A stretch of DNA of 64,000 nt, from NCBI RefSeq assembly GCF_000585495.1, contig NZ_CP007264.1:1054001-1118000 (forward strand). Reading direction: 5' to 3'. Shown here one piece after another: positions 10,124-38,932 of the stretch (within the stretch, counting starts at the first letter, position 1; every line of letters starts with the position of its first letter). A program made the position numbers and the translations under genes. The notes under the pieces were generated by a model. It worked only from the letters and a program-made list of their open reading frames with translations. It had not been told where the DNA came from and did no database searches. The stretch is from Thermococcus nautili. Lineage in GTDB: Archaea > Methanobacteriota_B > Thermococci > Thermococcales > Thermococcaceae.

Positions 10124-11302
10124 TCAGCCTTCCCACAGCTCCAGCAGGAAGAAGGGCACGTCCTCCCTTTCGAGCACGATTACGTTCCGTGGATATCTCC
10201 TGTGGGCTTTTCCGGCTTTCACCTCCACCTTCAGGTTCCCAGCTATCGCGTCAACCTCGTAGGAGTTCCGGTAGTAGTAAACCTCCCCGAACTTCCTGTG
10301 CAGGTGCTCCTGAACGAGCCACTCATAGAGGGCATCTTCCCTCAGCTCAGCCCCGCTCCAGGCAGAGAAGAGCCTCGCAAGTAGAGGGTCGCGGAAGAAG
10401 AACTTCTTCTCCCTCTTGTACAGGACCCTGTTTCCCTCCCTCAGGTATGCGATTCCGATGATGTACAGCTCCCGGAAGAACTCGATGTAGTCCTGCACGA
10501 CCTTGTAGGAGTAGCCGGAAGTCATTCCCGCTAAAGCCCGAAAGCTCGTAGCCGAGGGCGCGCTCTGAATCAGAGCATAGAACGTTTCCCTCGCTATCTC
10601 GAGGCTCTTCCCAAAGCGGACGAATTCACCTATGTATGCTCCGAGCAGGTCTTCCATCGGTAGACCGTTTATTGAACCGGGGAATCCGCCGGTTTTCAGG
10701 TACTCCTCGAACAGTCCCAGTGTTTTTTCTCTGTGAAGTTCTGGCCTCTTCAGGCCCATGACCTCAGCGTATTCCGCAAATGAAAGAGGCATGACTTCGA
10801 GCGTCTTTCCCTCTCCTCTCCTGCCCGGAAACATCTCGATGTCTCTCTTCACCCTTAGGGAGCTTGAGCCAGTAACCGTGACCACGTCGTTCTCCAACAT
10901 GCCAGCATCGATGAGCGGTTTGAGGCCCCTCCACCAGCCGTCGAGCGACGTTACCTCATCGAGGAAGATGTATCCCGTTTTGATTCCTTCCCGCTTTTTC
11001 ATCCCTTCGAACTCCCTAAGGAGAGACGCTAGTTCCCTGTGGTCTGGGAGAATCTCCACGTTAACGTAGAGAATCGACTCCGGCGGGTTTTCCTTCAGGA
11101 GTTCCTTGATAAGAAGCTTTATCCCCGTCGTCTTTCCCACCTGCCTCGGGCCGAGGACGAAGTTGAGCGAGAACGGTTCGAGCGATAGCTCATCGGTCCA
11201 TTTAGGCCACCAGTGGATTTTCTGCTCTCTCCAGCGTTTAACATGGTAGTCCTCTTTTCCCTCCCACCAAGGGTTCATGTAAACTAAGTCCCCCAATCTC
11301 AT
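10124..11302 (-). CDS. AAA ATPase with DUF4143-type C-terminal domain
   Basis: A 392-residue ATPase: Walker A LGPRQVGKTTG (about residues 50-60), Walker B GYIFLDEVTSL and sensor VTVTGSSSL, then a winged-helix part and a C-terminal restriction-endonuclease-like segment (EVYYYRNSYEVDAIAGNLKVEVKAG). This is the layout of archaeal ATP-binding proteins with DUF4143. They are abundant and sporadically distributed in Thermococcales, and their roles are unknown; defence or mobile-element functions are often suspected. The start follows GGTG plus six bases. Expression is probably governed by the operator pair at 11312-11369. A relative lies at 28237. Confidence 0.85.
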   Translation of the reverse strand: MRLGDLVYMNPWWEGKEDYHVKRWREQKIHWWPKWTDELSLEPFSLNFVLGPRQVGKTTGIKLLIKELLKENPPESILYVNVEILPDHRELASLLREFEGMKKREGIKTGYIFLDEVTSLDGWWRGLKPLIDAGMLENDVVTVTGSSSLRVKRDIEMFPGRRGEGKTLEVMPLSFAEYAEVMGLKRPELHREKTLGLFEEYLKTGGFPGSINGLPMEDLLGAYIGEFVRFGKSLEIARETFYALIQSAPSATSFRALAGMTSGYSYKVVQDYIEFFRELYIIGIAYLREGNRVLYKREKKFFFRDPLLARLFSAWSGAELREDALYEWLVQEHLHRKFGEVYYYRNSYEVDAIAGNLKVEVKAGKAHRRYPRNVIVLEREDVPFFLLELWEG

Positions 11303-11422: not shown

Positions 11423-11505
11423 GTGAAAGGGGGTAATAACCCGCCCGAGTTCATTGACTCCGCCCTCGGCGGTGCTCCCCGGGCGATTTAGGTTGGACCT
11501 TTCAC
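11423..11505. ncRNA. Candidate structured small RNA (H/ACA-like folding, strand uncertain)
   Basis: Three nested perfect stems occur in a GC-rich island between genes. GTGAAAGG (11423-11430) pairs with CCTTTCAC (11498-11505). CGCCCG (11442-11447) pairs with CGGGCG (11480-11485). CCGCC (11460-11464) pairs with GGCGG (11468-11472) around a three-base loop. Two internal loops separate them; the lower one has about 11 and 12 bases, like a guide pocket, and the upper is asymmetric, as a kink-turn would be. No clean ACA follows the outer stem on the plus strand (ACC is found), so the class is unsure. No reading frame occupies the region. Confidence 0.4.
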
Positions 11506-11518
11506 CATAAAAGGCTTT

Positions 11519-11770
11519 CTACCACACTTTGACCTCTTCTTTTTCGTTCTCCTCGAGCTCGACCTCCTCGTACTTCCCGTTCAGCTTGATTGAGATGGCA
11601 TAGACGAGGGCAACGAACGAGCCGAAGAGAAACGCCATGAAAATCCAGACGAGCCTCTCAGATTCTGGCATAAGTTTCTGATTCTTAACGACGTCGTAGG
11701 TAACCCACGCGAAGCCCGCGATGTTGAGAACCCAAATCAGACCCCAGATTCCGATGACCACGTCGAACAT
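11519..11770 (-). CDS. Small membrane protein with PLDc_N-like two-helix domain
   Basis: 83 residues. Two membrane segments (VIGIWGLIWVLNIAGFAWV and LVWIFMAFLFGSFVALVYAI) flank a short loop, YDVVKNQKLMPESERLVW, with the layout of the PLDc_N domain found in small archaeal and bacterial membrane proteins. A highly acidic tail follows (VELEENEKEEVKVW). No enzymatic part is present and the function is unknown. It lies between a candidate RNA and the cyclic diphosphoglycerate synthetase-like gene. Confidence 0.7.
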   Translation of the reverse strand: MFDVVIGIWGLIWVLNIAGFAWVTYDVVKNQKLMPESERLVWIFMAFLFGSFVALVYAISIKLNGKYEEVELEENEKEEVKVW

Positions 11771-13821: not shown

Positions 13822-14250
13822 CTATGGAACCATAACGAAGCCGTGAACCGCAAAGTCGCTGTCGAAGGTGAACGCCTTCCTGATTCCAAGCCTCTCCATT
13901 ATCGCAAAGGCCAGGCTGTCGAATAAGTCTATTCCCTGCTGGTCGCGGTACTTGAAGAAAAGCTCCCAGGCCCTTTCCCAGTCCGCTTCGGTTTCCTTCT
14001 CGATGAAGATGAACCTGCTCGCGGTGTAGAGGCGGTACTGCTCCTCGGCAACGTCCTTTCCAACGTGCTTTGCAACGCCGTTTAGGAACTCCATCAGCGT
14101 GGGCCTGCCGATTACGAAAACAGACCCCTCCCTAACGGCGTCCTTAAAGAAGCCCAAGGCCCGCTCGTGCTCAGGGTCGTCCCTGACGAGGAGAGCTATC
14201 ATGGCGCTCGTGTCCATGTAGAAGAGCTCTGGCCTCAGTGGCTTCGCCAT
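13822..14250 (-). CDS. PIN-domain toxin VapC
   Basis: A 142-residue PIN RNase. The acidic active-site residues appear in FYMDTSAMIALL (N-terminal Asp), TLMEFLN (Glu), GIDLFDSLAFAIM (Asp) and FTFDSDF (C-terminal Asp). It starts inside the last codons of the ribbon-helix-helix antitoxin gene upstream (16-base overlap), the standard antitoxin-toxin order. Likely substrates are tRNA or rRNA loops. The toxin ends two bases from the stop of the converging alaX gene. Confidence 0.85.
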   Translation of the reverse strand: MAKPLRPELFYMDTSAMIALLVRDDPEHERALGFFKDAVREGSVFVIGRPTLMEFLNGVAKHVGKDVAEEQYRLYTASRFIFIEKETEADWERAWELFFKYRDQQGIDLFDSLAFAIMERLGIRKAFTFDSDFAVHGFVMVP

Positions 14251-14495
14251 TCGACCACTCCCCAGTCTTCATCGTGGCTCGTCTTCTTGCCTTTAAGCTC
14301 TACCACGCCGAACGCCTTCCAGATTGGGTCTTTTTCTACTTCCTCCTCGGTTATCCCTGCGTTCCTCCTGAGGTATTCCTCTATGGCCTCCTTGAGTATC
14401 TCCTTTATGGGCTTTCCCTCCCTGAGCGATAGGGCCTTGAGCATTGAGTACAGGCTCTCATCAATCTCGGTCTGTACATGTTTTGTAGATGACAT
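14235..14495 (-). CDS. Ribbon-helix-helix antitoxin VapB
   Basis: 86 residues. The N terminus has a ribbon-helix-helix DNA-binding fold: the strand VQTEIDESLYSML, then helices SLREGKPIKEILKEAIEEYL. The acidic, tryptophan-containing C-terminal part (EDWGVVEWRSH) would neutralise the PIN toxin encoded immediately downstream with overlapping frames. As usual for such pairs it probably represses its own promoter, which lies in the 40 bases before 14495. Confidence 0.85.
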   Translation of the reverse strand: MSSTKHVQTEIDESLYSMLKALSLREGKPIKEILKEAIEEYLRRNAGITEEEVEKDPIWKAFGVVELKGKKTSHDEDWGVVEWRSH

Positions 14496-20033: not shown

Positions 20034-20126
20034 GTGCTGGAGTTTTTGTCCAGCCTTTTAAAGTTGATGTATCAGCCAGGAATCCGGTCATCATCCCGGG
20101 GTCAGGTTCGAGAGTGCTCATCACGT

Positions 20127-20142
20127 TGGGGTGGCCACCCCA
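20127..20142. repeat. Perfect 16-base palindrome between divergent genes
   Basis: TGGGGTGGCCACCCCA is a fully self-complementary sequence in the 156-base spacer between the permease gene (leftward) and rimI (rightward), about 48 bases before the rimI start. It could be an operator or part of a hairpin. The rest of the spacer holds promoter-like AT stretches and no reading frame. Confidence 0.4.
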
Positions 20143-38796: not shown

Positions 38797-38849
38797 CACT
38801 GCGGGGGTTCGTCCCTATTGGGTGGAGCCCCCGAACAGGGGGCGACGAA

Positions 38850-38932
38850 GACCCGGACGCCAAGACGGCGGCGTCGGGGGGAACGGGTGCAAAGCACCCA
38901 AAGATGAACCCCGCCCTCCAGTCCGGGTCACA
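38850..38932 (+). ncRNA. H/ACA guide-like hairpin in the rRNA leader (candidate)
   Basis: GACCCGGAC (38850-38858) pairs perfectly with GTCCGGGTC (38921-38929), a nine-base lower stem, and ACA follows at once (38930-38932). Inside, G-runs (38876-38881) pair with CCCC (38909-38912) and GGGTGC pairs with GCACCC. The two stems are separated by GAAC on one side and a stretch containing ATGA on the other, as in a kink-turn for L7Ae. The distance from upper stem to ACA is about 16 bases, as in archaeal H/ACA RNAs. The 5' pocket strand is longer than usual, so this remains a candidate. Confidence 0.35.

Follow-up and report, generated by a model that had tools for sequence, protein, structure and literature searches.

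The 64,000-nucleotide stretch of Thermococcus nautili DNA analysed here (the window) carries on its minus strand, from 11484 to 11429, what homology shows to be almost certainly the ortholog of sRk11, a small RNA of Pyrococcus abyssi. The best explanation of the whole, to which we give a probability of roughly 0.6, joins an sRk11 gene with a kink-turn that would make its product an L7Ae ribonucleoprotein (RNP). An initial annotation had drawn nested stems here on the plus strand, within 11423-11505; the stems exist, but both the strand and the limits have to be replaced. Likewise, of its suggestion of a known guide RNA in another guise or a new small RNA, "known" has held and "guide" has not. 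Positions within the RNA are numbered from its 5' G (window position = 11485 - n), and the features are as follows.

11514-11520, minus strand: BRE-like element, -36 to -30 (position-specific conservation in 88 loci and 33 divergent upstreams)
11506-11513, minus strand: TATA box CTTTTATG, -29 to -22 (information content over 88 loci)
11429-11484, minus strand: sRk11 ortholog, ncRNA of ~50-56 nt (covariance-model match, alignment, P. abyssi 5'-end match)
11443-11484, minus strand: hairpin 1, with P1 GCCC/GGGC (11481-11484 with 11443-11446), two more pairs, an internal loop and the stem CCGCC/GGCGG (11468-11472 with 11460-11464) (pair counts)
11449-11478, minus strand: predicted standard kink-turn, G7 G8 A9 (11478-11476) against C29 [N30 A31 U32] G33 A34 A35 C36 (11456-11449) (alignment, pair counts, core scan)
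11431-11442, minus strand: hairpin 2, GGG UUAUUA CCC, likely the 3' end region (97.7% of cells paired)
11423-11505, plus strand: fold of the initial annotation, its outer 8-bp stem judged a chance pairing (swap test)

Identity and distribution of the RNA

In P. abyssi, sRk11 was found by Northern blot and primer extension as an ncRNA of about 50 nt, entered in Table 1 of that report with region 197248-197534, minus strand and a 5' start at 197484 mapped by primer extension (Phok 2011, PMC3124441). A TATA box, conservation in all thermococcal genomes and constant expression through all growth phases are also recorded for it, while the main text gives neither a kink-turn nor a function (PMC3124441). 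Our covariance model matched the source genome at 1065425-1065484(-), that is, window 11425-11484, and a 1,765,118-bp genome (G064) at C1:197425-197484(-), where the end of the match coincides, on the same strand and exactly to the base, with the published 5' end. We take G064 to be P. abyssi GE5 on its chromosome length together with this exact match. The 5' end at 11484 is assigned by homology to the published one, and the 3' end in the source genome is a predicted one. The two RNAs agree in 5' end, strand, size class, single locus, upstream TATA box and conservation throughout the Thermococcales, and nothing essential differs between them.

A search of the literature by name returned no relevant report besides Phok et al. 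2011 (PMC3124441), and the available text of the T. kodakarensis and T. onnurineus transcriptome papers mentions orphan ncRNAs and does not name sRk11. No Rfam 15 family matched the RNA at gathering or permissive thresholds, whether the window, a 301-nt region or eight orthologous loci were searched. The RNA is not new; what is new, within the literature searched, is the reading of its binding partner as L7Ae through a kink-turn.

BLAST with 111 bases matched the RNA core in 89 of 94 Thermococcales genomes, one of these being a weak, false match (locus L102 of G029). The remaining 88 loci, taken on the minus strand, form an alignment with a mean column identity of 87%, which is the basis of the covariance model. 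With the model, sRk11 was found in 92 of the 94 genomes at one locus each, including four (G012, G022, G029 and G051) that BLAST had missed or mis-hit and that stand outside the alignment and the pair counts. The two genomes lacking a match are 69% and 53% complete, and all 74 genomes of the order with at least 90% completeness and at most 5% contamination gave one. The model gave no match in 21 further genomes from elsewhere in the phylum, which were searched under stricter filters at the cost of weak matches. A search of genome_contigs with an exact pattern returned 23 stretches, whose titles all name Thermococcus, Thermococcaceae, Thermococcales or Thermococci, and none in viral contigs. 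Candidate second copies in G038 and G043 (weak model matches, 23.6 bits) coincide with the start of a coding sequence and seem fortuitous, and a 34-nt perfect piece in G091 adjoins a stretch of N and has the look of an assembly artefact.

Promoter and transcription unit

The BRE and TATA elements keep a fixed spacing relative to the first G of GCCC, both in the 88 loci and in the 33 divergent upstreams (less than 60% identical to each other), with TATA information at -27 reaching 1.44 bits in the former and 1.22 bits in the latter. The spacer from the TATA box to the start shows far lower conservation than the RNA does. Within it, a CCAAC-like box at -13 to -8 (window 11492-11497) is conserved in many Thermococcus, with up to 1.17 bits at -10.

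The nearest genes on either side vary by genus. The nearest upstream ORF of at least 60 aa points in the direction of the RNA at 79 of 88 loci and the opposite way at nine; downstream, it runs in the same direction at 56, in the opposite direction at 30, and is absent from the range searched at two. Since the RNA has its own promoter, changing neighbours and downstream ORFs on the opposite strand, sRk11 is a gene of its own, not a leader. In the window itself the next same-strand gene, encoding an AAA_14 ATPase (10124-11302), begins 126 nt past the RNA, which could suggest a 5' leader or riboswitch acting on that gene in cis; with downstream neighbours that change both between and within genera, the 30 loci whose nearest downstream ORF is on the opposite strand and the two with none in range, we regard this as very unlikely. 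Our leading guess is an RNP with a housekeeping role that acts in trans, not a cis leader.

In Thermococcus, a frequent upstream neighbour is an 83-aa protein (11519-11770, minus strand in the window); it has no Pfam match above cut-off, and the PLDc_N name given to it by the initial annotation was not borne out. Farther upstream, two adjacent small ORFs (13822-14495, minus strand) look by eye like a putative VapC/VapB toxin-antitoxin pair.

That the island contains no frame, as had been noted, agrees with the comparison of loci. A short translated ORF could open at the AUG at RNA position 31, the only ATG frame in the RNA, and an MN(L/S)GGLLPP-like start is frequent. Over the 88 loci, however, this frame runs from 9 to 231 codons, codon 3 exchanges Leu and Ser, and in some relatives the hairpin loop differs in length by one base, which throws the frame off; translation is highly improbable.

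Secondary structure

The pairing model consists of P1 (1-4/39-42), pairs 5-37, 6-36, 10-29 and 12-28, the stem 13-17/21-25 and the 3' hairpin 43-45/52-54, and leaves 99.4% of cells paired over 59 distinct rows. P1 and the CCGCC/GGCGG stem are paired in 100% and 99.5% of cells, and both-side changes occur at three pairs: at 12-28, 34 of the 59 distinct rows have A-U and the other 25 have G-C, with no intermediate; 15-23 passes from G-C to U-A in three distinct rows; and 17-21 passes from C-G to A-U in one. Pair 5-37 is G-U, A-U or G-C in all 58 distinct rows with letters. Slid versions of the model pair only 27-60% of cells; a shuffle control overstates pair support among related sequences. On a tree of 40 neighbour proteins, which leaves out L070 and proteins shorter than 250 aa, 12-28 changes five times; as this tree is weakly resolved (4 of 37 inner branches well supported), two to five changes is the fair range. 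A GAGY/ACUY pairing was rejected, two of its pairs being unpaired in 19 and 5 of the 59 distinct rows.

All three perfect stems of the initial annotation are present in the plus-strand letters: 8 bp at 11423-11430/11498-11505 (exact reverse complements), 6 bp at 11442-11447/11480-11485 and 5 bp at 11460-11464/11468-11472. The inner two are parts of the conserved RNA, read from the minus strand, and for this inner portion both the conservation and the compensatory changes that had been looked for in relatives were found. The outer stem did not survive comparison. Over 44 non-redundant Thermococcus loci, its own arms gave no longer helices than swapped ones (p = 0.15 for Watson-Crick pairs, 0.64 with G-U), and the plus-strand H/ACA fold was rejected on this test; the arm of this stem at 11498-11505 falls between the TATA box and the transcription start, upstream of the start site. 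In folding energy the 83 nt stand out only mildly, with z = -1.57 for the plus strand (matched by 15 of 200 shuffles) and z = -2.80 for the minus strand (1 of 200), and the 56-nt core gave z = -1.87. Judged from sequence comparison, it is conservation, not folding energy, that raises the core above chance.

A predicted kink-turn and the L7Ae proposal

Under published rules of layout and naming (PMC4316175, PMC6298567), hairpin 1 contains the tandem G-A pairs, the 3-nt bulge and the flanking helices of a standard kink-turn, as far as letters alone can tell. A Kt-7-type core lies in register in 87 of the 88 aligned sequences, again a matter of sequence only, the exception being G060. It also has G at 3n and C:G at -1b:-1n, a combination described for kink-turns able to fold with metal ions alone (PMC6298567). 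The kink-turn suspected by the initial annotation finds support, although both the strand and the register drawn for it have to be changed. A loose form of the core occurs in 24% of dinucleotide shuffles, and its mere presence is for that reason a weak argument; the strict form, defined post hoc after the case had been seen, occurs in 0.2%. Presumably the core of Kt-7 in 23S rRNA, C-NNN-GAAC against GGGGAG, is the same as that of sRk11, and the two differ in three loop letters and in helix context. Invariant positions are uninformative on their own. There are better arguments: 5-37 is never broken, the register of 12-28 puts G10-C29 beside the G-A pairs, and position 30 (L1) is the sole loop position that varies freely among all four letters.

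Against the kink-turn stands the kink-turn scan of Phok et al., whose main text lists sRkB, sRkC and sRk52 alone (PMC3124441), sRk11 being absent from it in this respect. Moreover, both RNAfold and RNAalifold give preference to a competing set of pairs (5-38, 6-37, 7-36, 10-28 and 11-27) that leaves 99.0% of cells paired. This pairing would speak for an sRk11 that acts in trans without L7Ae, its internal loop serving as the site of another protein or as a pairing surface. The rival pairing nevertheless breaks 5-38 in three distinct rows, leaves the A-U to G-C exchange at 12-28 unexplained, and accounts neither for the free L1 nor for the fixed AUGAAC/GGGGAG letters, and we consider this L7Ae-free reading unlikely, if deserving of real weight.

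Returning to the L7Ae proposal, the minus-strand gene would be transcribed from its own BRE/TATA promoter into an RNA of about 50-56 nt with two hairpins. The first would fold into a standard kink-turn to which L7Ae would bind, giving a small, stable, trans-acting RNP; on the strength of the alignment and the pair counts, we hold this step to be on balance probable. sRk11 would then probably form a free-standing L7Ae RNP of small size, which might act as a scaffold, bind target RNAs or hold L7Ae in reserve. The L7Ae-binding ncRNAs sRkB, sRkC and sRk52 of P. abyssi are small Thermococcales ncRNAs with a kink-turn or kink-loop, as sRk11 is predicted to be. Unlike sRk11, which has a single copy in each genome, they are repeated, and they are also longer and akin to transposase sequences.

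Unlikely guide RNA and antisense roles

The fold had been likened to an H/ACA guide. Archaeal H/ACA RNAs and the H/ACA-like guides of Pyrobaculum do carry, within a stem, a kink-turn to which L7Ae could bind, as sRk11 would, and a weak resemblance to PyrR204 was detected (12.4 bits against a cut-off of 71, E 9.3). By published rules, the ANA box of such guides stands 14-16 nt from the pocket-closing pair, and about 10 layers separate the pocket from the kink-turn (PMC4652768). In sRk11, by contrast, no ANA box is present 14-16 nt past the stem, most rows having C/U runs at positions 52-59; the stem from the kink-turn to the base is too short, with six pairs plus non-canonical layers; and the RNA begins at the stem, leaving no 5' guide strand before G1. 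The search with Rfam H/ACA covariance models that the initial annotation had proposed gave no match above cut-off, and contiguous complementarity to 16S and 23S rRNA stayed at shuffle level, the best 16S stretch being reached by 12 of 60 shuffles. Structure and Rfam together exclude sRk11 as an H/ACA guide, and with the plus-strand outer stem not conserved either, a pseudouridine guide of H/ACA or H/ACA-like type on either strand is extremely unlikely. An rRNA antisense role was discarded, as the complementarity does not exceed that of shuffles. No C/D box pair was seen by eye in the 56-nt RNA, and the only Rfam C/D match, sR52, is sub-threshold (15.2 against 50 bits) and lies outside the core. 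Elsewhere in the window, Rfam models match the H/ACA RNA Pab19 (38827-38932, plus strand, 95.8 bits, RF02794), just upstream of the 16S rRNA gene, and the C/D box RNA sR5 (20071-20127, minus strand, 47.2 bits, RF01304).

A tnpB element beside sRk11

In four of 61 Thermococcus genomes (loci L008 in G006, L078 in G016, L096 in G040 and L099 in G019), an opposite-strand tnpB gene has its right end directly next to the 3' hairpin of sRk11; the gene is full-length in two of them and broken in two, and the L008 copy matches Pfam PF07282 and PF01385. An exact search for the 18 bases of this right end gives a single occurrence per genome in these four and no occurrence in the 57 others, and four further matches with two mismatches lie elsewhere, in each case with no tnpB among their two longest frames. 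By the usual TnpB logic, the guide predicted for this element would lie antisense to sRk11. The left boundary of the element is not sharp, and we make no claim that the 3' hairpin was split and rebuilt.

Implications

Tentatively, and with more chance of being wrong than right, sRk11 might represent a third type of stable archaeal L7Ae RNP, one that lacks a guide: a minimal particle with one kink-turn, universal in the Thermococcales, that would occupy or position L7Ae, for example as a reservoir tuning its translational autoregulation, and whose gene would, in some Thermococcus, have become the permanent site of a TnpB element. Strongly conserved in a well-studied archaeal order, sRk11 has been an orphan RNA since 2011. 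The prediction that L7Ae binds through G33/A34 against G8/A9 would open sRk11 to biochemical study in T. kodakarensis, a genetically tractable species, and, if true, would add a new RNP type beside C/D, H/ACA, RNase P and the ribosome.
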